Assembly (NCBI GenBank): GCA_014381305.1
Contig: JACNLW010000016.1
Location: 1 to 33,464, forward strand
DNA: 33,464 nucleotides
Source: Planctomycetota bacterium
GTDB lineage: Bacteria; Planctomycetota; Phycisphaerae; Phycisphaerales; SM1A02
Direction: 5' to 3'
Both the position numbers and the translations under genes were made by a program. The notes under the pieces were generated by a model, which saw only the letters and a program-made list of their open reading frames with translations, made no database searches and had not been told where the DNA came from. Shown piece by piece: positions 1 to 21,164 of this stretch. Positions within the stretch are counted from its first letter, which is position 1, and each line of letters starts with the position of its first letter.

Positions 1-60
1 CAGGTCCGGGGGTCAGGTCCGGGGGTCAGACCCCGGGGTCAGGTCCGGGGGTCAGACCCC
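1..60. repeat. 13-bp tandem GC-rich array, truncated by window edge
   Basis: Four 13-base units and part of a fifth run head to tail: CAGGTCCGGGGGT at 1, 14 and 40, and the variant CAGACCCCGGGGT at 27, with a degenerate CAGACCCCTGGTG at 53. The CAGACCCC variants create the palindromic core GGGGTCAGACCCC. The array touches the left edge, so its full length is unknown. From memory, GGGGTCTGACCCC-type palindromes are scattered between genes in several bacterial groups as REP-like elements; I could not verify that here. Confidence 0.85.
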
Positions 61-5067: not shown

Positions 5068-6375
5068 TTATTGTACGCGGGATGTCCTTCTTACCCAAGC
5101 CAAACTTGCGACACTTGCGCCAAGAAGTAACGCGCCGTTTGCTTGATGCAGTGTTGTGAGCACAACTTCGTACACGGGGATCGAACTTCCCGAATTTAGA
5201 AGGATCGCGATGAGGGCACCTCCCCCTAACAACAACTGCAATCCAACGAGGGCGAGCAATAATTTGCCGTATGTGTTCAACACCGTGTTTTCTCGAGCTA
5301 CAAGTCGTAGTCCAAAAAGAACAACCACTAGAAGCACAACAAACGCAACAAAAATATGTGTATATAAAATGTGCGTGGCTTTTGGTGCAAGTGTTTCATC
5401 TCCTAGCATGTGGCGGTAGACCGCACCGAGTACCAGCTGCAAGACCATCGCGGAGACTAAAATCCAGCCAAGACGAACGTCTTTTTTATCTGCATTGTTG
5501 TCAACAGAACAATTCTGCCAAGTAGGCGACATCATCGCTGCAATCCAAACAAATCCTGCAAAAATCAGTTGCCCAACAACCCCATGCAAAACACCGATCC
5601 AAAGATTTGGGCTGAGCATTTCCCGATCTTGACTCATTGTCAAATGCCCAGTCACGCGTAGCCCACCAAGCAGCCCTTGGGTGCATACCATCAAAAACAC
5701 AAGTGTCGCAACTGCGCGAACAACGCAGTTGGAACTCCACCGCCATGCAACAACAACCATCACAAGCGAGGCAAGCCCGACGTACATGCCAGTGAGCCTG
5801 TGCGCATGTTCAAAGAACACACCTTCGTTTTCAGGCGAAACCATTTCTGTCAACGGGTACAACAACATGTTATGTCCGTAACTGTTTGGCCAATCCGGCA
5901 CTGCAAGGCCAGCTTCAAGTCCAGTCACCAATCCACCAGTTACGAGCATTAGAAATACCAACACGGAAGCCATAACAAAAAATTCGTATTGCCAATCAAC
6001 TGCTTTTGAACACGGCCCCATGTATCGACCAATTCTCGCACCAGTAAAGGTCAATCCTATTGAGCCACCAAGCAAGATGCCAAACCACAGGAAGCCTTTT
6101 GAAATCACTTCCTCGCTCCCACCAATCATGCTGCCGAGCAACATGAGGTTCAAAAAAGCTGATATCCCGCCAATCCAAAGACTTTGTGCTGAGCTGCCGC
6201 CACATCTAGTATGTATGACCCCAGCGAGAACCAAACTAAGCCCTGCAAGAACAAAAAGTACCTCGCCACTTGCGGGGCCGGCGAATAAAAGAGAGATGTA
6301 ACTCAACATCCACATCGCTGTTGTTGCAGCAAATGATAAAGTGAGTGTTCTTGCAATTGAGTTTTGTGTTTTCAT
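5068..6375 (-). CDS. ctaA: Heme A synthase (COX15/CtaA family)
   Basis: Integral membrane enzyme that oxidises the C8 methyl of heme O to the formyl group of heme A, needed by the A-type oxidase encoded to the right. The protein has about eight or more membrane segments. Family landmarks are present: AVPDWPNSYGHNMLLYPL, FEHAHRLTGMYVGL with conserved histidines, LHGVVGQLIF, ILYTHIFVAF and TLHQANGALLL. The longer open frame reaches 6480, but I chose the ATG at 6375 (435 residues, beginning MKTQNSIARTL) because the extra 35 residues would run across the divergent ctaB start. Some 39 bases separate the two divergent starts, so they probably share a control region. Confidence 0.9.
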   Translation of the reverse strand: MKTQNSIARTLTLSFAATTAMWMLSYISLLFAGPASGEVLFVLAGLSLVLAGVIHTRCGGSSAQSLWIGGISAFLNLMLLGSMIGGSEEVISKGFLWFGILLGGSIGLTFTGARIGRYMGPCSKAVDWQYEFFVMASVLVFLMLVTGGLVTGLEAGLAVPDWPNSYGHNMLLYPLTEMVSPENEGVFFEHAHRLTGMYVGLASLVMVVVAWRWSSNCVVRAVATLVFLMVCTQGLLGGLRVTGHLTMSQDREMLSPNLWIGVLHGVVGQLIFAGFVWIAAMMSPTWQNCSVDNNADKKDVRLGWILVSAMVLQLVLGAVYRHMLGDETLAPKATHILYTHIFVAFVVLLVVVLFGLRLVARENTVLNTYGKLLLALVGLQLLLGGGALIAILLNSGSSIPVYEVVLTTLHQANGALLLGASVASLAWVRRTSRVQ

Positions 6376-6414
6376 AATGAAAGATACATATACTACCTTA
6401 GTTGAGGCACAATT
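6376..6414. promoter_or_regulatory. Divergent ctaA/ctaB control region
   Basis: Only 39 bases lie between the divergent start codons, so promoters for both heme genes must be here or extend into the coding sequence. The AT-rich TACATATACTA (6385-6395) contains a -10-like TATACT at 6389-6394 for ctaB. GAGG at 6404-6407 is a plausible ribosome binding site seven bases before ctaB. I do not see a convincing -35 box for either direction. Confidence 0.4.
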
Positions 6415-7356
6415 ATGAATGACCAAGAAACTACAATCCACATAGAGCATGACAAAGACGGACAACAAGGTCTCATTCAAGCCTATTGTGAGTTAACAAA
6501 AATTAAGTTGAGCTTGCTCGTGGTCATGAGCACCGCTGTTGCTTTTGTTATGGCAAGTGAACTCGGTATTGATTGGCTTGCATTTCTGTGGACGGTTATT
6601 GGTACTACATTAAGTGCAGCCGCAGCAGCAACCTGGAATCAACTCTTTGAACAGAAACGAGATGCGTCGATGGCTCGGACGCAAAATCGCCCAATTCCAT
6701 CTGGTCGAATCTCAACTGTGCACGCTTTTGTTGTTGGAGTACTTCTTACATATGGTGGACTCGCCACACTCGCCTTTGGAGCAAATCCAGCTGCGGCCGG
6801 CGTTTCGCTGCTCACAATTCTGACGTATGTGTTTGTCTATACGCCTCTCAAGCCAAGAACGACATACAACACCTTCATTGGCGCAATCGTTGGAGCATTC
6901 CCTCCCCTTCTTGGCTGGGTCGCTGCAGTTGAAACGCTCAGCGGCGGCGCTTGGATTTTAGCGGGCATTTTGTTTTTATGGCAAATTCCGCACTTCCTTG
7001 CACTCGCTTGGAAGTACAAGGACGATTACGAACATGGTGGATTTACGATGCTGCCATCCCTAGACTCCGAGGGCGAGTTAACTGGTCGAGTAAGTGTGCT
7101 TGCAGCAGTTTGTTTGATTCCACTCTGTTTACTTTTCACAAGTGAAGGCGTTGCTTCTCCCCTCTTCGCAATTGGAGGATCACTACTCAGTGCGTGGTTC
7201 ACTTATGTATCCTACAAATTTTGGCGCAATCCAAACAACACAACGGCAATGCGTATGTTTCTTGCAAGCATTGCATACCTTCCACTGCTCTTTATATTAA
7301 TGTTGTTCACAAGGGAATATGTTAACTTTACGGTAACACTTACAGGTACATCATGA
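6415..7356 (+). CDS. ctaB: Protoheme IX farnesyltransferase (heme O synthase)
   Basis: UbiA-family membrane prenyltransferase that attaches a farnesyl group to protoheme to give heme O, the step before CtaA. The 313-residue protein has about eight to nine membrane segments. The first Asp-rich region is NQLFEQKRDASMARTQNRP (75-93), matching the COX10-type N...D...R.xNRP pattern, and the second is KYKDDYEHGGFTMLP (about 201-215). It is divergent from ctaA, and its stop overlaps the DUF3179 gene by ATGA. The local set (ctaA, ctaB, sco, ctaCD, subunits III and IV) makes the role in heme A supply clear. Confidence 0.93.
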   Translation: MNDQETTIHIEHDKDGQQGLIQAYCELTKIKLSLLVVMSTAVAFVMASELGIDWLAFLWTVIGTTLSAAAAATWNQLFEQKRDASMARTQNRPIPSGRISTVHAFVVGVLLTYGGLATLAFGANPAAAGVSLLTILTYVFVYTPLKPRTTYNTFIGAIVGAFPPLLGWVAAVETLSGGAWILAGILFLWQIPHFLALAWKYKDDYEHGGFTMLPSLDSEGELTGRVSVLAAVCLIPLCLLFTSEGVASPLFAIGGSLLSAWFTYVSYKFWRNPNNTTAMRMFLASIAYLPLLFILMLFTREYVNFTVTLTGTS

Positions 7357-8411
7357 CTGATCAAAATATACGGCTAACATTCCGCGGTGGCGGTTGGGTA
7401 CTTGTGATGACAGGCATCGTCCTGCTTGGCATCGTTGCATGGGCAATTGCACCAGCAGTACTGCGGATGACGAACCTCCCACCAGGTGACAACCAAACCA
7501 TCGAATCGTACAAATTTGACCTCTCCAATCTACAAATAAGCAGGGATTTAGTGGTTCCCGCGATGCGTCACCGAAACATGTCCCCTGTCGTCACAGAACC
7601 AATTATTCTTTCGCCGGAAGAAATAAAACAAAGAAACAGTTCCAAGCGTGACCCACTTGTCGTAAGCAAAGATATTGTCGTGGGGATTACAATGAATGGA
7701 GAAACACGCGCGTATCCACTTCATTTTTTACATGTCCATGAGATAGTAAACGACACGCTTGGTGGCGTGCCAATTTCAATCATTTGGCACTGGCCAAGCG
7801 GACATCTTGCTGTCTTTGAAAGAACAATAGGTTCAAGTGATTTGCAATTTGCAAACAGTGGACTCGTTGGCAATGGGGGCATGTTGTTTTATCCACTTCA
7901 AGAAGAGGTTGGCGGTGAACAACTTTTTGCTTCAATGCTTGGCAGATCAATGAGTGGTGACGACGTTTCGCTTGTTCAAGTTCCTCACGATCTTGTGAGT
8001 TGGAAAAATTGGTCAACACAACATCCAAACACTACAGCACTCGGGCCGAACAAGCAATTAAAAAAGAGGTATCGCAAGGCAAGCCCTGAATTATATTTTC
8101 GTACCGAGAAAATTTACTTCCCAGTTGCACAAATGCCAGAAAGTGAACTCAATCCAAAAACTCCAATCATTGTTTTACATATAGACGGTTCTGATTTTGT
8201 CTATTCAATCCCGGCGCTTCTTGAAGTGGCTGGCGATGATGGGCTGTTTCAAGACCCAAACAACTTCCACGCTTTTACTGTACAAGACAATCCTATGACC
8301 GTTTTGGTTCAGAACCCCCAAGGGCAAAATGCATTAACATCAACTGCATTGTGGTTTGCATGGCACGCAAACCATCCAGATGCAACGATCACTTCTTTAT
8401 CGCAAGAATAA
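7353..8411 (+). CDS. Membrane-anchored DUF3179 protein lacking cysteines
   Basis: A 352-residue protein with one N-terminal membrane segment (about residues 15-37), so most of it should be periplasmic. The body matches DUF3179: GETRAYPLHFLHVHEIVND, GGVPISI, FANSGLVGNGGMLFYP, HPNTTALG and a final WFAWHANHPDA. Most DUF3179 proteins I know carry a CPLC-like cysteine pair after the GG.P strand; here the same place reads WHWPSGHLAVF and the whole protein contains no cysteine. Its start overlaps the ctaB stop (ATGA), so it is translationally coupled to a heme O synthase. The family's function is not established. Its 3' end overlaps the convergent oxidase subunit III gene by 15 bases. Confidence 0.75.
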   Translation: MTDQNIRLTFRGGGWVLVMTGIVLLGIVAWAIAPAVLRMTNLPPGDNQTIESYKFDLSNLQISRDLVVPAMRHRNMSPVVTEPIILSPEEIKQRNSSKRDPLVVSKDIVVGITMNGETRAYPLHFLHVHEIVNDTLGGVPISIIWHWPSGHLAVFERTIGSSDLQFANSGLVGNGGMLFYPLQEEVGGEQLFASMLGRSMSGDDVSLVQVPHDLVSWKNWSTQHPNTTALGPNKQLKKRYRKASPELYFRTEKIYFPVAQMPESELNPKTPIIVLHIDGSDFVYSIPALLEVAGDDGLFQDPNNFHAFTVQDNPMTVLVQNPQGQNALTSTALWFAWHANHPDATITSLSQE

Positions 8412-8963
8412 GATCACAATAAAAAACAAAATCCAAATACAACAGATGAAATCCCAGTACGTCACGAGTAGTGGCACAAGGGTTTTGTGTTTGGCGTATC
8501 CATGTCTTGTTGCGACAAGACCAAGTGGCACAAGGCCGCCAATCACATGCATGCCATGTAAAAACATAAGTACATACAGTGCCATCCGTGCGATTGCTAC
8601 AACATTTTCATTTTGGCCAACTGTTGTTAACTCATGATGCCATTGCATTGCGGCAACCACTTGCAGCCCAAGGAAGGTCAAAATAAGGACGGAGACTGAC
8701 CACATCCATACACCATGCCATTCCTGTTTAATTTTTTGCATTGCGATCGTACTGAGTAAAATTGCGCCCGTGCTCCACCAAAGTGCACTCGGAACTGGTG
8801 GCAATTGGGGCCAATTCTCAACCTGTGTTCTAATAACGACAATTGCCAATACAGAAGCAAGAAGAAAGACAGCGATCGAAGAGATAAACCACCGCATCCC
8901 CAAACGCAGCGCACTTTCCTCTGAACCCCCACTGGAAAACACACCCTTTTTTTGATCTTGCAT
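8397..8963 (-). CDS. ctaE: Cytochrome c oxidase subunit III family protein
   Basis: Membrane subunit III of the heme-copper oxidase, which stabilises the catalytic core. The 188-residue protein has five predicted membrane segments, the short form typical of bacterial caa3-type and bo3-type oxidases rather than the seven-segment form. Family features include QVVAAMQWHHELTT, then FLHGMHVIGGLVPLGLV and a final YWDFICCIWILFFIVIL, equivalent to the usual HGxHVxGG and YWHFVDxVW regions. The ATG at 8963 shares one base with the subunit IV stop (TGATG), better than the TTG one codon upstream. It is the last gene of the respiratory operon and overlaps the convergent DUF3179 gene tail to tail. Confidence 0.85.
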   Translation of the reverse strand: MQDQKKGVFSSGGSEESALRLGMRWFISSIAVFLLASVLAIVVIRTQVENWPQLPPVPSALWWSTGAILLSTIAMQKIKQEWHGVWMWSVSVLILTFLGLQVVAAMQWHHELTTVGQNENVVAIARMALYVLMFLHGMHVIGGLVPLGLVATRHGYAKHKTLVPLLVTYWDFICCIWILFFIVILFLR

Positions 8964-9355
8964 CAATGTGCGTCTTTAATTTTATCCATTGCCGCAGTAA
9001 CTGCCGGCGTATCGCCTTTAATAATTTCAGGTTGATACTCCATCGTGTCCATCAGAGCCAGTCCAATAAACAAAACTACAAACAAAATAGATCCTACGAA
9101 AACAAAGCCAATAAAAGGGCGATCCCAACGAAGGTGCATAAAGTACAAACCAACAAAAGTTGCTTTTACCGTTGCAACGAAAAGTGCCATAATGATTCCC
9201 ATTTCAGCGATGTTGATTTCGGTAAAGTCATACCGAGAAACCCACACTGTCACTGCCGTAAGAAAGAGGAGCAGGCAACAAATTGCTGTAAGAAATTTAA
9301 TGGGGACAATGTGTCCCACTTGTATTTCGTCATGATTATTCTGAGGTGTTGTCAT
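8963..9355 (-). CDS. ctaF: Cytochrome c oxidase subunit IV family protein
   Basis: Small accessory membrane subunit (130 residues) with three predicted membrane helices, as in prokaryotic subunit IV of caa3- and bo3-type oxidases. The segment ATVKATFVGLYFMHLRWD is the family hallmark, followed by a hydrophobic helix with FIGLALMDTMEY. The cytosolic N-terminus is polar and His/Asn-rich. It starts 17 bases after ctaD, the widest gap inside the operon, and its stop overlaps the subunit III start. The role is structural; deletion is usually tolerated in model organisms. Confidence 0.85.
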   Translation of the reverse strand: MTTPQNNHDEIQVGHIVPIKFLTAICCLLLFLTAVTVWVSRYDFTEINIAEMGIIMALFVATVKATFVGLYFMHLRWDRPFIGFVFVGSILFVVLFIGLALMDTMEYQPEIIKGDTPAVTAAMDKIKDAH

Positions 9356-9372
9356 AATAGTAACTCGCTTGT

Positions 9373-11052
9373 TTATTCACCAGGGTGAACGGCATCCTTA
9401 CGCCAGTCGTATCCCTGCTCTTCTTCGTTCCATTCAAGAACGCTGAAGTCGTAACAGTCTCCTACTTCTGGTTGTTCTGCAAAGTTATCCCATGGTGGTG
9501 GTGAGGAACATTGCCACTCTAAACTGCGTCCGCCCCAAGGATTCGCAGGTGCTTTTTTGCCTTTGAAGATCGAATGGATCAGATAAATTGCAATCACGAA
9601 AAACCCGATCGCTAAAACAACAGAACCGATGGTAGAAACAATGTTGTAAATCTGAAACTCGGGGGCGTACGTTGCGTACCGCCGTGGCATGCCACGAGAA
9701 CCCATCATAAATTGGGTAAAGAAGGTCACGTTGAAACCTACAAAGACAAGGGCACATGCAATTCTGCCCCATAATTCACTGAACATTTTCCCCGTCATCT
9801 TTGGCCACCAGTGATGGATTCCGCCAATGAATCCAATAAGGGCAGAGCCCATCATGACGTAATGGAAGTGCGCAACAATAAAGTATGAGTCATGCAGGTG
9901 AACATCGGTTGCAAGGGTTGCACAGTACAAACCAGTCAGCCCACCGATACCAAAGATAAAGATAAACGACAATCCATAGAGCATGGATGTGTTTAGCGTA
10001 ATTGAACCTTTATAAAGTGTTGCGAGCCAGTTAAATACTTTTACTGCCGATGGAATAGACACACTGAATGTAATCAAGGAAAAGATAATGTTTACGAGTT
10101 GCGATTGGCCAGCTGTAAACATGTGGTGACCCCAAACAAGGAAGCCAAACATTGCAATTGCGATTGAACTATATGCAATAAATTTATAACCAAAAATATG
10201 ACGGTGTGAGTGTACTGCGATGAGTTCACTGACAATGCCCATCGCTGGAAGAATCATGATGTACACAGCGGGATGAGAATAGAACCAGAAGAAATGCTGG
10301 TAGAGAACAGGATCACCACCGAGTGCCGGATCGAAAATACCAATGCCGAATGCGCGTTCAACAATCAACAATAAAAGCGTGATTCCAACGACTGGCGTTG
10401 CCAACACTTGAATAATTGCTGTTGCATACGTCGCCCATAAAAACAATGGCATTTTGAACCATGTCATACCTTGAGGGCGGAGCCTATGAATGGTGACAAT
10501 AAAGTTCATTCCTGTGAAGATTGAACTAAATCCGAGAATGAACGCACCTATCAATGCGGGAATCACACCACCCATCGAAGACGCTTTGTCAATACTGTAT
10601 GGGGTGTAGAACGTCCAACCAGTATCAAGACCACCACTGGCGAGCGAGATCAAGAAGAATACTAAACCGAACACCCACAGATACCAACTAAAGAGATTTA
10701 GTTTTGGGAACGCAACATCCTTTGCCCCCAACATGATTGGCAAAACGAAATTGCCAAGTGCTGCAGGTACTGCGGGAATAATCACCAAGAAAACCATAAT
10801 TGCACCATGTACGGTGAACGCTTGGTTGTATTGGTCTTGCGTCAACAATGCACCTTCTGGCGTTAACAAATGGAATCGAATGAGCATTGCAAAAAGACCA
10901 CCAAGCAAGAAGGCGGTAAGGATGCATATTAAATACATGATTCCGATCCGCTTGTGATCAAGTGTGAATAGCCAAGACTTAATGCCCTTGGTGTGGTTGA
11001 GATAGTTGTCACTCATGCTCAAGTTATTGTGTTGTGCGTCGGTCGTTGTCAT
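9373..11052 (-). CDS. ctaD: Cytochrome c oxidase subunit I, A2-type
   Basis: Catalytic subunit that reduces O2 to water and pumps protons. The 559-residue protein has about twelve membrane helices and all metal ligands: His82 and His397 for the low-spin heme, His395 for the high-spin heme, and His260, His309 and His310 for CuB, with the cross-linking Tyr264. The CuB region reads YSHPAVY (258-264). Replacement of the HPEVY glutamate by YSHPxVY is the signature of the A2 subfamily. Asp112 ([11 protein letters not shown]) and Lys338 ([10 protein letters not shown]) match the D- and K-channel entry residues. The start ATG is two bases after the ctaC stop with GGAG upstream. Confidence 0.96.
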
Positions 11053-11054
11053 CG

Positions 11055-12146
11055 CTACTCCGTTGGTGTTCCGTCAGGATTTACTGTGATGTTGCCATTT
11101 GCATCGGTGACGTCACGAAGATGTTTAAACATCTCAATAATGGCGGTAATTTGTTTTTCTTTAAGTTGACCTTGGAACGATGGCATCGAGCCGAGGTACC
11201 CTTGCACAATGTGTTTTTGTGGGTTCAATAGTGATTCTCGAATATAGTTTTCAGGCTCACCGTACTCTGTTGCATCGCCAATAAGACCAGAGAGTGATTC
11301 ACCATTTGTAAATTTCACCTGTCCACTTTTTACACGATCCCACAAACCCTTAAAGGTGGGACCTGTACTAAGAGAACCGTCTAGTGAGTGACAGGAAGCA
11401 CAACGGTTGTACAAACGATTAATCGCATAGGCTGGCAACTGGCCAACTGACATATCTTCATACTCATTTGCAAGTTTTGTCATTGTTGCAGCAAACTCAT
11501 CTGCAGGAATTACATGAACAGTTGCTAGCATCTTCGAGTGGTCCTTGCCACAATATTCAGTGCAGTTCAGCGCGTACTCTCCAACTGCAGTAGCTTCAAA
11601 CCAAAGCGATGTGTATCGACCTGGGATCACGTCCATTTTAACGCGAAAATCAGGAATCCACACACTGTGCAAAACATCATTTGATGTCATAAGAAGTCGA
11701 ACTGGTTTGCCGACTGGAACTGTCAACTCTGCAACTTGCGTTGCACCATATTCAGGATGGTCAAACGTCCAAGACCACTTTTGTCCCGTTACCTGTACTT
11801 CGTAGCAACCCTCTGGTGCTTCGCGTAAATTTAAATACCCTCGCATTCCGACAGTAAATATGACAACAACCAAGAGCAATGGAATAATTGTCCATGTCAG
11901 TTCAAGTGCAGTGTTGTGTGTTGGGCCTGCACACACCATGTCTGGTGATTTTCTTCTATATTTAATACAAAACACAACCATCAACCCTACGATCAATGCA
12001 AAAAAGAAATAACAAATCCAAGTGATGACGTTGAAGGTGAGATCTACTCCACCAGCTGTTGTCGATGCTGCACGTGGCAACCAAAAGTTACCATTGTCAA
12101 CAGGCGTCGCGGTTGCAAGAAGAATGTTCGTGAAAATCGAGATCAT
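11055..12146 (-). CDS. ctaC: Cytochrome c oxidase subunit II with fused cytochrome c (caa3)
   Basis: Electron-entry subunit of the oxidase. From the ATG at 12146 (363 residues) it has two membrane helices (about 37-62 and 82-103), a cupredoxin domain with CuA ligands His160, Cys195, Glu197, Cys199, His203 and Met206 ([12 protein letters not shown]), and a C-terminal cytochrome c domain with CASCH (249-253) and a likely axial Met321 (GSMPSF). A fused cytochrome c makes it caa3-type. I preferred this start because it gives an ATGA overlap with sco; the frame is open upstream to 12278 only because it runs inside sco. An N-terminal hydrophobic stretch may be a signal peptide. Confidence 0.94.
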
Positions 12147-13009
12147 GAGATAAGTCCTGTTGAACTTTGAGGTACGGAGCCTGAACCCCTGTCTGTGGGA
12201 TTCATTCGGCTCAGAATAAAGATACCGCCAGCAAGAATAACCAGCGTGAAGATACCTGCCATCCGCATCAATTTCCACGCACTTGGCGTAAAACTGTTGC
12301 TGTCAGGGTCGTATTGGTAACAATTAAATAACAAAAACGTATCAATGAGTGAACCGATTTTTCCTTCGGATGCCTCAACCAAGGCAAGCCTGAGGTCGCG
12401 TCCTTGGAATTTTACATCGTTCATATATCGTGATATTTTTCCGTCTGGTGTCAAAAACATGATGCTCGACGTATGAAGGTACTCACCGGTTTTCGGATCA
12501 AAGACATATCCGAAACCAAGCGTATCAGCAAGCGTCGTAATATTTTTTTGGTCACCTGTGAGAAAATGCCAACCATCCGAAGATCCTTCTCGGTCATACT
12601 GCTTGAGATACCCCGCTTGATTTTTCAAAGCAAGTGGTGGTTTTTCGTCTGGGTTGATGCTTACAGTAACTATCTCGAAGTCACTTCCTAAATCTAACTT
12701 CATTTCCTTCATGCCAGTTGTTAAACCGTTGAGGGTAAGGCTACACAACATTGGACACATGTAGTAGTTCAAAGTAATGATGATTGGTTTTTCACCATTG
12801 ATATATTTCGCAAGTGTTACAGCATTTCCTTGTGCGTCCACAAATGAAAGATCGAGGGGCACTTGATCTTCTAAATTTTGGGTGATGCCAACCCCATCAA
12901 GTGCCTCTACTTGTTCATCGGCAAATGTTGGTCCCGCTTGGGAACTATGAGATAAACCACATATCAATATGGTTGCACCAACAAGCAAATTAGACCAACA
13001 GCGATGCAT
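12143..13009 (-). CDS. sco: SCO1/SenC copper chaperone for the CuA site
   Basis: Thioredoxin-fold protein that delivers copper to, or keeps reduced, the CuA site of subunit II. The 288-residue protein has an N-terminal signal/anchor (about residues 5-25), the copper motif CPMLC (85-89) with the distal His179 (LHTSS), and, less usually, a second hydrophobic segment near the C-terminus (about 246-264), so it may be anchored at its C-terminal end. It lies two bases after the small membrane protein and overlaps ctaC by ATGA, consistent with CuA assembly. Confidence 0.92.
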   Translation of the reverse strand: MHRCWSNLLVGATILICGLSHSSQAGPTFADEQVEALDGVGITQNLEDQVPLDLSFVDAQGNAVTLAKYINGEKPIIITLNYYMCPMLCSLTLNGLTTGMKEMKLDLGSDFEIVTVSINPDEKPPLALKNQAGYLKQYDREGSSDGWHFLTGDQKNITTLADTLGFGYVFDPKTGEYLHTSSIMFLTPDGKISRYMNDVKFQGRDLRLALVEASEGKIGSLIDTFLLFNCYQYDPDSNSFTPSAWKLMRMAGIFTLVILAGGIFILSRMNPTDRGSGSVPQSSTGLIS

Positions 13010-13366: not shown

Positions 13367-14647
13367 TTATGCATTTTCAAAGTGTAGTGCTTCATCCAAT
13401 CGAGGATCAGCAGATGCGACCAAGTTACAAGAACGAAGATTGATCAGTGTGCCACCGCAAAGCAGCGCAAACATGCCAATCACACAAGTAAAGTTCACCA
13501 AGGTAAAACCATATCCAACTGATACTTCTCCACTGCTGACGAGGTTTGCAAGTTCGTTGTAACTTGACGCTTCAGCAATTGCTGTTTCAGGAATCACAGG
13601 AAATACTAACCAGTAAATGTCGACGAAGAACATGAGTACCATCCATGCAGCGATCACTGGCAAAGTACATCGCCATCGCTTCGTCCATCGTGTAATCAAC
13701 AAGAGGAACGGAACTAGGAAGTGTCCAAACAAAAGCAGGAGCGAGATAGATGCCCAGCCACCCAACTGCCGAGTAATGTACCAACCGGTTTCAACTGGAA
13801 GGTTTGCATACCAGATAAGCATATATTGACTAAATGCAATGTACGCCCAAAACACAACACCAAGACCGAAGAGCCATTTGCCTAGGTCATGGTAATGTTC
13901 TGTTGTAATTGATTTTTGCACATGTCCCGTTTTTTGTAGGTAGCGCGCCAACAAAATGATCGATGCAAAAAATCCTGCCATTGTTGCTGACCAAAAGTAG
14001 ACTGGAAACATCGTACTGAACCATTTTGGTTGCAATGTCATCATCCAGTCGATTGCAGCATAACTTTGTGTGAACGCGTAAAGAATCATGCAAATTGGTG
14101 CCCACTTTTGCATTTTGTGCGTCCACTTCACATCGCCATCAGCGTCTTGTGCTGTAGACCATTTAAAATATAAAGAAGCGACGACGGCCCACACAACAAG
14201 ATAGAAAACAGCGCGAGCTGACCAAAATGTTGGCGAAAGGTACGTCGCTTTTTTATGAAGCAGGTGATCATGTTCCATCAGTTGGGCATTTCCCCACTGA
14301 TAGAGAAGATCGCCCTCACCCTTGAGTACCATGATAAGAATTGGTAGAAAAAGAACCCACATCCATTTCAAGTTCTTTGCGATTGCTTCTGCAAGACGCC
14401 TAACTGAAATGGACCAGCCCGAACGAGTCATGTGTTGTAGTAACACAAAAAACATTGCTCCTAATGCAATTCCTACTGCAACCATCCATGCAAACAGGTA
14501 TGACTTCCAAAATGTAGTCCATTCACCTGAGCCAAGGGCGGCGCTCAAACCTAAAAACGCTGCACCAACACCCGCAAGCGCTGGGCCAGCCTTCTTTGCA
14601 ATTCCGCTTAAGCGGAGATGATCATTGTTGATATCAGCAACTTTCAC
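13367..14647 (-). CDS. actF: Alternative complex III membrane subunit ActF
   Basis: Polytopic NrfD-like membrane subunit of the quinol:electron acceptor oxidoreductase (alternative complex III), 426 residues with about ten predicted helices. It is a second, diverged relative of ActC. The segment FTQSYAAIDWMMTLQPKWFSTMFP (here broken as FTQSYAAIDWMMTLQP then KWFSTMFP) is typical, as is the C-terminal DPRLDEALHFENA. The start is GTG at 14647, overlapping the actE stop as GTGA. In known complexes ActF packs beside ActC in the membrane domain; whether it binds quinone or moves protons is not settled by this sequence. Confidence 0.9.
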   Translation of the reverse strand: MKVADINNDHLRLSGIAKKAGPALAGVGAAFLGLSAALGSGEWTTFWKSYLFAWMVAVGIALGAMFFVLLQHMTRSGWSISVRRLAEAIAKNLKWMWVLFLPILIMVLKGEGDLLYQWGNAQLMEHDHLLHKKATYLSPTFWSARAVFYLVVWAVVASLYFKWSTAQDADGDVKWTHKMQKWAPICMILYAFTQSYAAIDWMMTLQPKWFSTMFPVYFWSATMAGFFASIILLARYLQKTGHVQKSITTEHYHDLGKWLFGLGVVFWAYIAFSQYMLIWYANLPVETGWYITRQLGGWASISLLLLFGHFLVPFLLLITRWTKRWRCTLPVIAAWMVLMFFVDIYWLVFPVIPETAIAEASSYNELANLVSSGEVSVGYGFTLVNFTCVIGMFALLCGGTLINLRSCNLVASADPRLDEALHFENA

Positions 14648-15396
14648 TTGTTGCTCCCTTCATCTACTCGAGGTAACGAATCTGCATTCGGAACGGTCGA
14701 AGCATCTGCATTTTGTGAAAGTTGCAATGCTTCGATATACGCAACAATTGCCCATCGATCTGCAACAGGTATTTGCGAACCATGAGCAGCCATCGTTCGA
14801 ATGCCATTTGTGATGGTGTTAAATATTTGCCCAACTGGTTGTGCTGCAATCATATCTTCGTGTAAGTTCTTTGGAGCGACCCATGTGGTCCCGTTCACAC
14901 CGGTTTCAACAAGTCGCTGGGCACGGTGATGGATAACGCCATCTCCAAAGCCGCCGGCGCCGTGACACGGTGAACAGAAGATATTAAACCGACCCTGTCC
15001 ACGATCGAGCAACGGTCGATCAACTGTAATCTGATCAGGAAATGTTGTCGCCCATGCTTCATCAACAATTCCCATGAAAAAATGCGTGTCTCCAGTCATT
15101 TCATTACGGGCAACTGTTCCTTCGACTTTTGGTCGCATTCCTCGACCATCGTTGAACATTGCATTCGCTTCTTGCGAAACAAACTTTGGCTGATTGTCCA
15201 TATTTTGGATGAAGTGTATTCTTGGCTTGTCGTTGTACACACCTTCGCTACGTGCACGAAAAACAAATGCAAGAATCATAAACGCAATACTCGTCATCAC
15301 GACTGCGCCCCACTTGATCCACAGAGGCATCTCTTTAAAGTCGGCAAGGAATGGTTTCAATAAATCATCAATAATTTGTTTGATCAAATTTGTCAT
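14644..15396 (-). CDS. actE: Alternative complex III monoheme cytochrome c subunit ActE
   Basis: A 250-residue protein with an N-terminal membrane helix (about 29-48) and a periplasmic cytochrome c domain. The heme attachment motif is CSPCH (141-145), and Met202 in GIRTMAAHGSQIP is the likely sixth ligand. It should accept electrons from the ActA hemes and pass them towards the oxidase. No lipobox is seen, so it is held by the helix rather than a lipid. The ATG shares one base with the actD stop (TAATG), and its own stop overlaps actF. Confidence 0.9.
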   Translation of the reverse strand: MTNLIKQIIDDLLKPFLADFKEMPLWIKWGAVVMTSIAFMILAFVFRARSEGVYNDKPRIHFIQNMDNQPKFVSQEANAMFNDGRGMRPKVEGTVARNEMTGDTHFFMGIVDEAWATTFPDQITVDRPLLDRGQGRFNIFCSPCHGAGGFGDGVIHHRAQRLVETGVNGTTWVAPKNLHEDMIAAQPVGQIFNTITNGIRTMAAHGSQIPVADRWAIVAYIEALQLSQNADASTVPNADSLPRVDEGSNK

Positions 15397-15974
15397 TATG
15401 CATCCAACTCAATAATTGATTCAGGTTCTAGAGTGTGAAGGAACGCTTCAACTTCACTTCGAACAAACTTAGGATCACGCGCTTCAATCACAAGGAAAAA
15501 TCTGTCATCAGTTGCTCTCGCCAAAGCTGGGTGCTTCAACGTTGGGTGATAAAACATTGGAAGTTTATTCAAAATCAATGTACCAAAAACTGCGGTAAGC
15601 GCTGAAAACAAGACTGTCATTTCAAACGCAACTGGTACGAATGCAGCGGGACCAAGCAATGGCTTGCCTGAAACATCGAACTGATAGCCAACAACAGGGA
15701 CAAGTGCCCAGAGGTCCACCTCTAATGAGTTTGTAAAAATTTGCAAACAACATGCGGCAATAAAGCCCGTTACTCCTGCACAAAAGACAATAATTGGAAG
15801 GATGGTCATCTTAACGCCCATCGCACGATCCAAACCGTGCACTGGAAATGGAACGAGGCAATCAAACCATCTAAAGCCAGCGTCCTTTACCTTTTCTGCT
15901 GCATGATAAATACCCGGAGTTGTCGTGAACTCTGCAGCAAGGCCATATAGTTTTTTAGGTCTTTCCTGACTCAT
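15396..15974 (-). CDS. actD: Alternative complex III subunit ActD (DUF3341)
   Basis: A 192-residue subunit with two central membrane helices (about 57-79 and 115-138) flanked by soluble ends, as in the DUF3341 family. The N-terminal domain shows the family's [21 protein letters not shown], then [21 protein letters not shown], and the C-terminal half has [12 protein letters not shown]. It carries no cofactor motif and is thought to be structural in solved complexes. It overlaps actC by ATGA and actE by one base. Confidence 0.9.
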
Positions 15975-17431
15975 GCGTCTCCCTCCTCTAGTGCAGCTTG
16001 TGCATCAGTCTCAGGTGTCATTTCGTTGTAACTGTGCCCATGTCCATGCGGATCTGCCGCTGGCATAATTGCTTTGATTTCAGCAATTGCGAGTACTGGG
16101 AGGTACCTGATAAAGAGCAAGAAGAAAGTCATAAACAATCCAAAACTTCCGAAAAATGTCATCACGTCAACCCATGTTGGCTCAAAGATTCCCCAACTAC
16201 TTGGAAGGAAGTCGTTGGCTAGCGATGTGACAACAATCACGAATCGTTCAAACCACATACCGACGTTCACCACCAAAGAGGCGATGAAAATAATCATAAT
16301 GTTGGTTCGCGCTTTCTTGAACCAGAATATTTGTGGTGTAATAACGTTACAACTCACCATGATCCAGTACGCCCACCCATAAGGGCCAAATGCTCTGTTA
16401 ATAAACGTGAATGATTCGTAGAGTTCGCCGCTATACCACGCAATGAAAAATTCCATTGAGTAAGCAAAACCAACTATCGAACCTGTGAAGAGAATAATTT
16501 TGCACATGTTTTCAATGTGCCGCATCGTGATGAAGTTTTTCAATCCCCATAATTCGCGTGCAGGAATCGCAAGCGTGAGCACCATCGCAAAGCCTGAGAA
16601 AATTGCACCTGCAACAAAGTATGGCGGAAAGATTGTCGTGTGCCAACCGGGAAGTTGTGCAACTGCAAAGTCAAAGGACACAACACTGTGCACTGAAAGT
16701 ACCAGTGGTGTCGCAAGTGCTGCCAACAATAAGTACGCTCGTTCATACCGATGCCAGTGCCGCATCGATCCACGCCACCCGACTGCAGCGATGCCATAGG
16801 CAATTTGCTTGATCTTCGTTGTTGAACGATCTCGCATCGTTGCAAGATCTGGAATCATGCCTAAATACCAAAACAGAAGTGAAACTGTGAAATACGTACC
16901 AACTGCAAAGACGTCCCACAAAAGCGGACTTCTAAACTGCGGCCACATATCCATTTGATTTGGGATTGGGAAGAGCCAATACGCTAACCAAATTCGACCA
17001 ATATGAATGCCGGGGAATGTCCCCGCACAAATGACAGCGAAAATGGTCATCGCTTCTGCAAAACGATTGATTGCGGTTCGCCACTTTTGTCTAAAGAGGA
17101 AAAGGATTGCAGAGATCAACGTTCCTGCGTGACCAATGCCAACCCAAAAAACAAAGTTCACGATTGGATATCCCCACATCACTGGATTGTTGTTTCCCCA
17201 AACACCAACGCCTGTCACGATGAGGTATCCGATTAAAACTCCGAGCATTGACATCATTGAGAAAGAAATCGCAAGTGCAACCCACCATGATTTTGGTGGT
17301 TTTGCAGCATCATTCCCTTTCAGAATGTCATCCGTCACTGAACCAAAGTCAGTGTGGTTCAAAATCAACTGTGGTCGATTTTGCGGATCTTCGCCGGTGT
17401 TATTCAATTGATTGGCTTGCAGCGTCGTCAT
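15971..17431 (-). CDS. actC: Alternative complex III quinol-oxidising subunit ActC (NrfD family)
   Basis: Membrane subunit of 486 residues with about ten helices in two four-helix bundles, of the NrfD/PsrC family. This is the likely menaquinol binding and oxidation site near the periplasmic side, next to the Fe-S domain of ActB. Recognisable stretches are [60 protein letters not shown] and [16 protein letters not shown]. The C-terminus has an HGHGH stretch. It overlaps both actB and actD by four bases, so expression of the membrane and Fe-S parts is tightly coupled. Confidence 0.92.
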
Positions 17432-20400
17432 CCGTGATGCGATCCTCCTGCTCCATTGGAGCCGTCGACTGGATTTGTCAGTCTTGCGAGATATTTCGTT
17501 CTTGTTTTTAAATTCAATTCTTCAAGCATTTCATATCCACGATCACTTTCGTGCAATTTGCTAATTCGGCTTTCCTTGTCTAGCAAATCTCCAAACACAA
17601 TTGCACCGGCTGGGCACGCCTGTTCACAAGCCGTGACAATTGCGCCATCTTGCAGTGCAATACGTGGATCCTTTGCTTTTTGAGCATCAGAAAGTTTTAC
17701 CCAAGCATTCTTTGCAGCTATTTTTACTTTTTGAATTCGTTGCGTGCAATACGTACATTTTTCCATTACGCCGCGCATTCGCACAGTAACTTCTGGATTG
17801 AATTGCATCGCACGTAATGTTTTACCACCAGATTGTGATTTGACGTAATAGTCGGGTTGCACTTGCAACATCCCCGCTGTCCGAAGTGGGTCTCGCCTGA
17901 AGTAGTCAAAGTAGTTGAATCGTCTTACCTTGAACGGGCAGTTGTTTGAACAATATCGAGTACCCACACAACGGTTATAGACCATCGTGTTGAGTCCATC
18001 TGTATCGTGGACAGTTGCAGCCACTGGGCACACTTCTTCACAAGGCGCGTTTTCGCAATGGGAACATGTCATCGGTTGAATCGCAACAGCGGAAAGTTTG
18101 TCGCCATCCCAACCGCCATGTCCATCACTTTCAAACGCAAAGTAACGATCTATTCGAAGCCACTGCATTTCACGGCCCATGAGCACTTGTTCTTTGCCGA
18201 CAATTGCGATGTTGTTTTCTGCTTGACATGCTGTCACACAAGCATTGCAACCAGTGCAAGAGGAGAGGTCAAACGACATACCCCACTTGTATTTCGCACC
18301 TTCAAATTGTTGTTCTTCAAACATCGAGAGCGAGTGCATTGTGTGACCAACATGCTGCGCAAAATGCGGATGTTCTTTGTATTGATCGAGTGTTCCTTCA
18401 CGGAATAACAACGGCAATCTCTCTTGTGTGCCTTTTCCGGGGGTTGAATCAATATCAAAATGCATTTGCGTTGTAGCAAGTGGATATGTATCGCCCGTGG
18501 CGGTGATTTTTTTTGCGTTTGCTGACCAAACACCGTTGCGGCGAAGAGGGTAGATATCTGTACCAGCACCTTTGCTCACACGGCCGGCGAATCGTCGCCC
18601 ATACCCAAGTGGCAAAATGACAACATCATCCGCAGTTCCAGGGACAGGCAAAGCCGCTATCGAAACAGTTTCTTTGGCAACTTGGATTGTAATGACATCA
18701 CCCTGTTTCACTCCAAGCTGCGCTGCAGTTGCGGGTGACATCACAGCGGCATTGTCCCAAGTGAGTTTTGTAATTGTGTCTGGAATTTCTTGCATCCAGC
18801 CATTGTTACTGTGGCGGCCGTCCCAAACTGAACTTGATGGGGTGAAGACTGCCGTTACACCGATATCATCCGAAATAGTAACTGGAGTAATCTTTCGATT
18901 CACTGGAGGTGATTCAAGTGATGCAGTGTTCTTAACAATGCCATCATGAACTGCTGTTCGCCACTGGGGATCCCACGCTTCATCACCTGCACCAAATGTT
19001 GCACGAACCAGTGTTTGTCCATCCGTTGTTGCCAAACCAGAAATTGTTGCTAACAATTCGGATGGTGTTACCCCATCGAACAGTGGACGAATGAGTGGTT
19101 GCCCAATACAAACCGTCCCGTCCGCACTTTTACCATCGCTCCATGATTCGAGCCAATGCGCTCTATTCACGTGCCATTTGCATGCTTGTGAAGTTTCGTC
19201 GTTGTACATCGACAAGTGCACCGACAAAGGAAGTGATGCAAGTAATTTTTCAAATTCTAGTTCTGCTGGAGCGTCAAACGCTGGATTGCCACCGATGACA
19301 ATGACTGATTCGACTTGCTTAGATGTAATCATCTCAGCAAGATCTGAAATTGAGGTTTTATAAGTGGAATCCAATGTTGTGTATGAAACTGTTTGACCGG
19401 CTGCACCGATCGCTTCATTAATACTTGCAACAAGGTGATGCACTGCTGGTGGCTGGCTTGCACCAGCGATCAGGAGCCCGTGCCTCCCCGCATGTTTCAG
19501 ATCTGTAATCACACGATCAGCCCATGCTTTTTCATCAGCTGAAAGTTTTACACCATCGCCGCCTACAAAAGCTGATCCAATTGCTGTTGCGATTGCTGTT
19601 ACCCTTGAGGGTTTCACAGCAATTCGTTCATCTGCATTTGCACCTGTCAGCGAAAGTGATGGCTCAGCAATCCAAACACGGTTCATTGATCCATGCGAAC
19701 CATTGCGGTTCGTTGCCCAGCCCCGAGTATTGGGCACCTGTGTCGGACCCGCACCAAGAAAATCGTTATCGAGCGAAACAATGGCTGTAGCCTTTGCAAA
19801 GTCGTGCACAGTTTTCCATTGACCTTTAAATGCCAATGCCAAACCTCTTCGTTCATTTGTGTTTGCAAGGGGATCGTATGTCACCCAAACTGCGTTGGGC
19901 ATCGACCGCATAAACGCGCGTCGCATCCGATGAAAGGTTGGTGAACTTGATTGTTCACTAAGGACTGCAACAGAGCTTCCATCGTTTGGAAGGTATGAAG
20001 CAATCCATTCTTTAAATGCAGGAAGGGAAGATTTTTCGCCATCGTAAGTTACGCCGCGACTTCGATCAGGATCATACAAATCTAGTATTGCTGATTGTGT
20101 AAAACTGTCTGTTGCGCCTTGGCTATCTGGATGCGAAGGATTGCCTTCAATTTTTGTTGGACGTCCATCATTGCTTGTGACAAGCACGCCTTGCGCAACG
20201 CCACCAAAATCAAAACACGTTGCGTAATGTTCAGCGATGCCAGGCATGGTGCCTTCGGGTCGATGTGCGTAAGGAACAATATTTTCCTTTGGCCAGCGAC
20301 GACATCCGCCTACGCCTAAGCCCGCGAGCGCCATTGATGCGCCCATGATTTTTAGGAAGTGTCTGCGATCATTTCCCGTTGCGAGTAACTCACTCGCGCC

Positions 20401-20511
20401 ATCAGGGAACTCATCTTGTACTTTCTTTCGGAAGAGTGGTGATTCGACAACCTCATCGAGGCTTCGCCACCATGTTCGACCAGTGTTTTTCTGTTTTTTC
20501 ACCGATGACAT
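17428..20511 (-). CDS. actB: Alternative complex III Fe-S / molybdopterin-like subunit ActB
   Basis: Large periplasmic subunit of 1027 residues. Near the N-terminus, [16 protein letters not shown] resembles a twin-arginine signal and is followed by GGC, a possible lipid attachment site. The middle resembles a molybdopterin oxidoreductase fold, which in studied complexes holds no molybdenum. The C-terminal part has the cysteine sets for four Fe-S clusters: [48 protein letters not shown], and CTYC with [10 protein letters not shown]. Known complexes hold three 4Fe-4S and one 3Fe-4S. I chose the ATG at 20511, with AGAGGA nine bases upstream, over TTG at 20520. It overlaps actA by 13 bases and actC by four. 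Confidence 0.94.
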
Positions 20512-21164
20512 GTTGAGCAATCCTCTGATGGTTGAAGGTCATTATGTGTACGCCATAGCGCGCTGTTTTCAAGACGTTCTGCTGCTGACATATCTAGTCC
20601 CCACTCGAGTTGTGTGACAAGGTCGGGATTACGAATATGCGGATCGGGGTCGCGGTGACATTCAAGACACCAACCCATGCTTAGTGGTTCATGTTGATAC
20701 ACCACTTCCATTGTGTCAACGCGACCGTGACACGAAACGCAACTTACACCTCGTGTCACATGCGCACTGTGATTAAAGTATGAATATTGCGGAAGGTCAT
20801 GCACGCGAACCCATTCGATTGGCATCCCAGTTTCGTAACTTTCAAAGAGTGGTTGAATTTTGTCACTCTGTGGATGAATTTGAGCGTGACAATTCATGCA
20901 CGTTTCTGTTGGTGGAATTGCTGCGTGTTGTGTGTACTCAACGGTGTTGTGACAGTACCGACAATCGAGACCAAGTTCACCAGCGTGCATTTGGTGACTA
21001 AACGGTATTGGTTGCTCTGGCATGTACCCAACATCTGTTGCTTGCGGACTAAATCCATAAGCAACCACGATCGCCATATACAAAGGCGCTGTCATCCCAA
21101 TGACGATTGCAGCCGGCAGTGCGAGGTTCGTCCATTGAGGAAAAGTAAATCTAGATTCAGTCAT
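20499..21164 (-). CDS. actA: Alternative complex III pentaheme cytochrome c subunit ActA
   Basis: A 221-residue protein with an N-terminal membrane anchor (about 15-36) and a periplasmic domain with five CXXCH motifs: 68-72 (CRYCH), 89-93 (CMNCH), 142-146 (CVSCH), 166-170 (CLECH) and 216-220 (CSTCH). Five hemes fit the ActA of known complexes, where they carry electrons from the ActB clusters to ActE. The protein ends one residue after the fifth heme motif, and the codons for that motif overlap the actB start. It is the first gene of the operon; a promoter candidate lies about 90-115 bases upstream. Confidence 0.93.
   Translation of the reverse strand: MTESRFTFPQWTNLALPAAIVIGMTAPLYMAIVVAYGFSPQATDVGYMPEQPIPFSHQMHAGELGLDCRYCHNTVEYTQHAAIPPTETCMNCHAQIHPQSDKIQPLFESYETGMPIEWVRVHDLPQYSYFNHSAHVTRGVSCVSCHGRVDTMEVVYQHEPLSMGWCLECHRDPDPHIRNPDLVTQLEWGLDMSAAERLENSALWRTHNDLQPSEDCSTCHR

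Follow-up and report, generated by a model that had tools for sequence, protein, structure and literature searches.

The stretch of DNA analysed here, referred to as the window, is a contig of 33,464 nucleotides (JACNLW010000016.1) from a Planctomycetota genome assembly of 1.88 Mb in 114 contigs. Directly after ctaB, the gene for heme O synthase, it carries a gene for a cysteine-free protein of the DUF3179 family. DUF3179 genes in this position belong to a clade that is marked by the loss of one cysteine, Cys146, and not by the absence of cysteine as such. The gene product is probably an overlooked helper in the building of an oxygen-reducing respiratory enzyme. The features of the gene and of its partner are the following:

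6415..7356, + strand: ctaB, heme O synthase, the partner gene (PF01040 UbiA, 184.7 bits; the homologous part of a fused protein described below matches TIGR01473)
7353..7356, + strand: ATGA shared by the ctaB stop and the DUF3179 start (read from the sequence)
7353..8411, + strand: cysteine-free DUF3179 protein of 352 amino acids, ATG start (PF11376 profile match)
7392..7472, + strand: single N-terminal transmembrane helix, residues 14-40 (predicted structure model)
7659..8048, + strand: repeat 1, residues about 103-232, with a predicted Rieske-like fold (structure models, repeat comparison)
7737..7742, + strand: His129-Glu130, matching by spacing (H-x16-C) the His of the first Rieske ligand loop, CxH; His in 95 of 98 ctaB-linked sequences
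7785..7802, + strand: WHWPSG, residues 145-150, with H146 at the place of the lost cysteine and S149 at that of the second (alignment columns)
8154..8378, + strand: repeat 2, residues about 268-342, degenerate and without the ligand motif (hhalign comparison of the halves of canonical members)

The match of the window protein to the DUF3179 profile covers residues 102-288 (E 4.5e-32) and, at 112.1 bits against a cut-off of 27, passes the curated threshold, bearing out the family assignment made in a preliminary description of this DNA. PF11376 was the only Pfam family matched, SURF1 (PF02104) not being among the matches; an NCBIfam scan of the protein matched no model, and a sequence search of the PDB returned no relatives for the window protein and three chance-level matches when the alignment served as query. 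The same description had pointed to an ATGA overlap with ctaB, to a membrane anchor, and to WHWPSG in the place of a cysteine pair in a protein devoid of cysteine. The overlap is present at 7353-7356, the anchor corresponds to the predicted helix at residues 14-40, and the translation contains no cysteine at all; in the alignment, the columns of WHWPSG read Y-C-P-L-C-[DG] in many other members of the family. The CPxxC motif, typical of many DUF3179 proteins but outside Pfam's definition of the family, is absent from the window protein. An N-terminal hydrophobic segment was seen in all 37 aligned members.

The context of the gene was examined in a sample of 215 DUF3179 sequences. Relatives of the window genome contributed 55 of them (59 rows, from which the window itself and three second fragments had been dropped), the class gave 80, and another 80, the best of 541 confirmed loci, were taken from named genomes. 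From the class set, 24 of the 25 rows with an in-frame TGA were left out together with the weakest and fragmentary rows, so that the linkage counts omit those TGA rows. Removal of six duplicates or near-duplicates left 209 non-redundant sequences. A DUF3179 gene was termed linked when a match to a CtaB profile lay on the same strand, at most 4.2 kb upstream of the end of the gene; the profile was made from planctomycete CtaB and applied at E 1e-5 or better, and it could have missed a ctaB of strongly divergent sequence next to a DUF3179 gene counted as unlinked. DUF3179 was found directly downstream of ctaB in 98 of the 209 sequences, 102 were unlinked, and linkage was undecidable in nine. Linked members are known from Planctomycetota, Acidobacteriota and Gemmatimonadota (taxa as the records name them), and the linkage holds at ~30% identity across phyla.

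Cys146, the first cysteine of CPxxC, was missing in 97 of the 98 linked sequences, being kept in L108 alone, and was kept in 78 of the 102 unlinked ones. Cys149 was retained in 55 of the linked sequences, and both cysteines were gone in 42, as in the window protein; DUF3179 proteins with both cysteines and a decidable context were never found beside a recognised ctaB (0/68). A FastTree phylogeny of 208 rows (one row fell out of the tree), computed with the motif columns masked and the window row not included, contained one split, with support 99, which took in all 98 linked sequences, ten unlinked and two undecidable ones; Cys146 was lost in 109 of these 110 rows. In an IQ-TREE quick tree of 79 of the 208 rows, which likewise did not include the window row, a Cys146-less split of 42 rows (L108 being the exception) received a support of 98, and all 35 linked rows of that sample lay inside it. 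The closest relatives of the window, G005 (69% identical) and G002 (56%), were placed inside the ctaB-linked clade, and the window gene itself, directly after ctaB and with Cys146 absent, has the properties of that clade.

L108 lies within the clade beside an unlinked member with a support of 32, and could therefore be a reversion or a misplacement. On the larger tree, 5 changes were counted for Cys146, 23 for Cys149 and 8 for linkage. Since Cys146 and linkage change at what is essentially the same branch, their correlation amounts to one event and allows no statistical test; an independent-pairs comparison of linkage and Cys146 loss yielded 5 pairs, with p = 1. Outside the clade, 13 rows lacked Cys146, none of them ctaB-linked, and 11 of these made up the divergent family f11 (L263-L267, L269, L270, L272-L275), in which His129 was also lost in 10 of the 11 tree rows and no recognised ctaB was present upstream. 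The motif W[HN]WP[ST][GA] marked one subclade of 14 rows (support 96), comprising the genus of the window and a few relatives, with one row reading HHWPSG.

The preliminary description had envisaged a cysteine-less, oxidase-linked clade, with a random scatter of cysteine-less members as the outcome that would speak against it. The tree does contain a well-supported branch holding every linked sequence, but it is not a cysteine-less one, Cys149 having persisted in many of its members. Rows without any cysteine (counted from the aligned start) numbered 21 and were scattered inside and outside the clade; 12 of them were ctaB-linked, and the remaining nine include one fragment and two with TGA at position 146. 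The proposed tie to the oxidase holds as a tie to ctaB, usually within an oxidase locus, but the role in assembly is one that we only infer.

The ATGA overlap in the window suggests that ctaB and the DUF3179 gene are translationally coupled. An ATGA or GTGA overlap was found in 48 of the 98 linked pairs, and in one further case, L109 (from the metagenome-assembled genome Zod_Metabat.1143), CtaB and DUF3179 were read in one frame of 643 amino acids, with UbiA at 33-279 and DUF3179 at 347-565. The CtaB part of this protein matched TIGR01473, heme o synthase, over the cut-off at 261 bits, and the DUF3179 part scored 198 bits; the usual membrane helix between the two was missing, and the locus contained no ambiguous bases. 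If CtaB ends on the outer face of the membrane, as UbiA-type enzymes do, the fusion would put the DUF3179 domain outside, which fits the single N-in helix of the unfused form. A second apparent fusion (G348, L276) was rejected, as it consisted of two genes in one frame with a TGA stop between them, the second having a helix of its own.

Conservation was followed in 61 genomes of the order, that of the window and 60 relatives: 42 contained DUF3179, and 57 gave a match to ctaB. In 10 of the 13 genomes of the genus, the window included, the gene stood after ctaB; in the other three, ctaB was at a contig end (G012), was partial (G003), or neither ctaB nor the gene was found (G006). The order ctaA (divergent)-ctaB-DUF3179 was repeated in much of the family and in six of six sampled genomes of family f5. 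Of five pairs, four yielded a ratio of nonsynonymous to synonymous substitutions (dN/dS), and in each of these it was below 1: 0.030/0.114, the only unsaturated pair, and 0.149/1.60, 0.158/1.81 and 0.228/2.03, in all three of which dS was saturated; the fifth pair gave no dS. The DUF3179 gene of the window is neither a chance open reading frame nor a decaying one, and is kept under selection.

The genes surrounding this pair in the window are listed below:

5068..6480, - strand: ctaA, heme A synthase, divergent, start uncertain; loop-1 motif GLAVPDWPNSYG without cysteine (PF02628)
8397..8966, - strand: small membrane protein, probably subunit III of the oxidase; the 3' ends of this gene and the DUF3179 gene overlap (weak NCBIfam matches)
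8963..13009, - strand: COX4, COX1, COX2 (with a cytochrome c domain) and SCO1, convergent (profile matches)
13367..21164, - strand: alternative complex III genes (ActD, NrfD-type subunit, iron-sulfur/molybdopterin-like subunit, cytochromes c), convergent

The locus is an alternative complex III/caa3-type oxidase locus, and the heme A and oxidase setting given in the preliminary description is confirmed by ctaA, COX4, COX1, COX2, SCO1 and the alternative complex III neighbours. The product of 8397-8966 matched NCBIfam subunit III models at E 2.6e-5, under the cut-off, and had no Pfam match; a subunit III-like gene stood beside COX4 in the window, G002 and G005, and had no match in seven loci of the genus (L034-L036, L038, L040, L053, L054), where COX4 faces DUF3179 directly. 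The CtaA loop-1 motif was found in 63 of 102 linked loci (near-duplicates included), with a cysteine in none of the 63; the other 39 loci showed no such motif, many of them being too short to contain ctaA. The missing cysteine pair agrees with the type 1.5 CtaA for which Planctomycetes are listed in the part of PMC8239418 cited here. A putative esterase gene (PF00756; 3552-5063, - strand) adjoins ctaA, or its expected place, in most members of the genus, and the family has at least two further genera in which this is so (L032, L059). The contig starts (window 1-60) with a GC-rich tandem repeat, GGGGTCAGGTCCGGGGGTCAGACCCC x2.

The two halves of canonical DUF3179 proteins are homologous (hhalign probability 98.4, E 9.1e-15), and the predicted structure of the first strongly suggests a Rieske fold. 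The model of canonical repeat 1 had a mean predicted local distance difference test score (pLDDT) of 93.9, and all 50 rows listed in a VIA comparison, which re-examined 977 Foldseek-ranked chains with a predicted and not a solved model, were Rieske proteins, NirD or Rieske-containing enzymes (Z 8.6-6.3). Among them were Rieske ferredoxins, Rieske subunits, arsenite oxidase small subunits, Rieske oxygenases and NirD; Z was at least 8 for 22 chains, and the NirD entries 3c0d and 4aiv tied at the top. NirD has a Rieske fold without a cluster. For the model of the window protein (pLDDT 92.6) the top six VIA rows were again Rieske proteins or NirD, with Z of only 4.4-5.0 over residues 113-220; short matches (Z about 3) that residues 285-327 gave to propellers and to other proteins were set aside as common arrangements. 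In 34 of 34 canonical DUF3179 proteins, 16 residues separate His129 from Cys146, and in 20 of 21 Rieske domains the same number lies between the CxH histidine and the CxxH cysteine; this spacing would put CPLC at the place of the Rieske CPxH and HE at that of CxH. The Rieske domain PF00355 was absent from scans of the 34 canonical proteins up to E 10. Sequence profiles reveal no relation, and the fold is therefore assigned from the predicted structure and the spacing of the ligands. The Rieske ligands C-x-H...C-x2-H are absent from the window protein, which has HVHE at 127-130 and HWPS at 146-149.

Five unlinked sequences carry a TGA codon at position 146 (G031:C453:10318-10800, G035:C207:6181-6666, G106:C3:254373-255017, L110 and L120), their motifs, with U for selenocysteine, being UVVC, UPLV in two and UPLT in two. 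DUF3179 is tabulated as a selenoprotein with the motif UxxC/T in the portions of PMC9312934 and PMC13188914 drawn on here; UxxV is not among the motifs quoted there. In the class search, in-frame TGA codons occurred in 25 DUF3179 rows, 22 of them from family f19. Because of the TGA in the five members and the published UxxC/T, position 146 looks like a reactive or ligating residue, and Cys146 is probably the reactive residue of the family. With its loss, the usual Rieske cluster or a thiol reaction based on Cys146 would be impossible in the ctaB branch, which may have a different metal or heme site. Residue 146 in the 98 linked sequences is Ser in 44, Asp in 21, Asn in 16, His in 14, and Gln, Ala and Cys in one each. 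His129, Glu130 and Asp134 are present in 95, 85 and 98 of the linked sequences, and in 75, 75 and 64 of the 78 unlinked ones that have Cys146.

The explanation we favour, at a probability of about 0.5, is that heme O synthase has in this protein an accessory subunit, periplasmic and with a Rieske fold devoid of a cluster, that helps heme O or heme A on its way towards CtaA and the oxidase. A single N-terminal transmembrane helix would anchor a soluble part in which two repeats follow each other, the first being of Rieske type. Classical DUF3179 proteins would hold a site of His and Cys-x2-Cys (or Sec-x2-Cys/Thr/Val, Sec being selenocysteine) at the positions of the Rieske ligands; in the CtaB-linked branch Cys146 would have been lost and the domain retained as a docking or scaffold module. 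Sitting on the outer face of CtaB, the protein would keep it near CtaA, and possibly near apo-subunit I, easing the passage of heme O or heme A to the oxidase in a manner likened to that of TEF5/PSB33 in photosystem II assembly. We infer the outer-face location, the binding to CtaB and the role in heme hand-off. A CtaA-CtaB complex is reported, and CtaA-CtaB fusions are known, in the sections of PMC9145763 referred to here.

A number of observations weigh against this explanation. In families f2, f4 and f6 of the same order, ctaB is present without an adjoining DUF3179 gene, and the neighbour is therefore not required for heme O synthesis as such; the genes examined after ctaB in L284, L285 and L286, which lack DUF3179, encoded ABC-transporter ATPases and a COX4-like protein, with no obvious substitute, and the idea of a replacement gene was not borne out there (the check covered 13 loci, with ctaB placement not clean in several besides these three). 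The fusion is a single case from one metagenome-assembled genome, the outer-face end of CtaB is presumed from UbiA-type enzymes in general, and the charges flanking the helix (70 positive and 32 negative before it, 61 and 59 after it) favour the N-in orientation weakly. In the IQ-TREE tree, the branch that best divides linked from unlinked rows had a support of only 22. As to the fold, the first 15 Foldseek rows for canonical repeat 1 were all of Rieske type, but E was 0.08 at best and not significant; the 50 matches listed for the full window model included no Rieske chain, E being not significant there either, and profile-profile comparison with Rieske domains by hhalign found nothing (probability 0.8 and 2.3). 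Ser, Asp, Asn or His at position 146 in 95 of the 98 linked sequences, together with the conserved His129, may denote an altered metal or heme site. Finally, ten clade members do not follow a recognised ctaB. Two of them, L092 and G328, are beside oxidase genes, and the other eight had no ctaB or oxidase match within the fetched 4.4-18 kb; their neighbours include a FabA-like protein, methionyl-tRNA synthetase, an ABC ATPase and porins, and for this reason the eight genes seem to have moved.

Those ten members would also suit the possibility that the gene is an operon passenger with a separate DUF3179 function, merely travelling with a conserved respiratory locus, since an oxidase locus bearing DUF3179 could be passed on or transferred as a block. 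We regard this as quite unlikely: the linkage persists across phyla at low identity, with four-base overlaps and one fusion, and the place after ctaB is kept where oxidase genes are not seen alongside (e.g. L061, L071). That the protein is still a redox or thiol enzyme, with Ser, Asp, Asn or His in the place of Cys146 and the second cysteine used in many members, would account for the 55 linked sequences that keep Cys149, but is highly improbable: the residue that is TGA-encoded in five unlinked members, and printed as U in the quoted UxxC/T (PMC9312934, PMC13188914), is gone in 97 of 98, and 42 sequences, the window protein included, have neither cysteine.

SURF1 and Cox11 are the textbook helpers of oxidase assembly. 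Profile searches found SURF1 in 0 of the 61 genomes and Cox11 in 0 of 61, and Caa3_CtaG was over the cut-off in 14 of 61; the window genome had no match to any of the three. The main rival explanation, a heme chaperone acting instead of SURF1, draws on these absences: the domain would bind heme O or heme A through His129, perhaps with His, Asp or Asn at 146, and carry it to subunit I. The conservation of His129 and of a polar residue at 146 (95 of 98 each) would agree with this, as would Paracoccus SURF1, which binds heme A, probably via a His ligand, according to the relevant section of PMC9145763. However, His129 is as conserved in unlinked proteins that bear Cys146, Ser, found at 146 in 44 sequences, is a poor heme ligand, the Pfam scan gave no SURF1 match, and the two genes do not complement each other across the genomes, since SURF1 was not found in relatives without the linked gene either. 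A replacement of SURF1 by mutual exclusion was not supported on the same count, the 61 genomes including those without the linked gene, and we consider the chaperone explanation unlikely. The missing Cox11 and the conserved His129, Glu130 and Asp134 could also point to copper handling for CuB or CuA, or to another metal site made of these residues and residue 146. To this we give little credence, as SCO1 is already in the locus for CuA, His is at 146 in only 14 of 98, the window protein is free of cysteine, and the three residues are also kept in cysteine-bearing relatives, where they may be structural.

The accessory subunit of heme O synthase thus remains the explanation that we prefer. A wider proposal, which we put forward tentatively and hold to be rather doubtful as a whole, is that all DUF3179 proteins form an unrecognised Rieske-fold family with a new His/Cys(Sec)/Cys site, one branch of which shed the site and became an outer-face subunit of heme O synthase, replacing factors of the SURF1/Cox11 type in Planctomycetota, Acidobacteriota and others. 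What is new is a variant of the known DUF3179 family, probably with a new partner, CtaB; in the passages of the literature consulted, DUF3179 was joined neither to CtaB nor to the Rieske fold. The insertion of heme A into subunit I after its synthesis is described as not known in the cited part of PMC9145763, and a gene that keeps its place beside ctaB in several phyla, and in one metagenome-assembled genome is even fused to it, offers a concrete candidate for a helper in this step. For DUF3179, a domain of unknown function some of whose members contain selenocysteine, the fold assignment leads to a hypothesis on metal or redox chemistry that can be tested: metal binding or thiol chemistry would be expected of the classical HE/CPxC proteins, but not, by way of Cys146, of the CtaB branch.

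Compared with known systems, the clade is closest to canonical DUF3179 (PF11376, HE...CPLC), with which it aligned by hhalign at a probability of 100 (E 1.2e-82, 288 columns) and shares the HExxND, SGL and W..HP motifs and the two repeats; unlike it, the window protein has Cys146 and Cys149 replaced (WHWPSG) and is linked to ctaB. Rieske proteins and NirD resemble DUF3179 in the predicted fold of repeat 1 and in the H-x16-C spacing of its canonical members, whereas DUF3179 is without CxH/CxxH, duplicated, membrane-anchored and devoid of profile similarity to them. Selenocysteine DUF3179 proteins, as tabulated in the excerpts of PMC9312934 and PMC13188914, are of the same family, and the five read here use position 146; the residue is strengthened there and lost in the ctaB branch. 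TEF5/PSB33 (LIL8), as characterised in the portion of PMC12164590 considered, is a membrane-anchored Rieske-like domain without cluster ligands that acts in the assembly of a photosynthetic complex; being from eukaryotic chloroplasts, with C-terminal helices and a role in photosystem II, it is an analogy only. SURF1 differs in having no profile match to the window protein and was found in none of the 61 genomes, but SURF1 and CtaM are, like the protein proposed here, extracytoplasmic or membrane helpers of heme A oxidases, and ctaM adjoins ctaB in S. aureus, as stated in PMC9145763.

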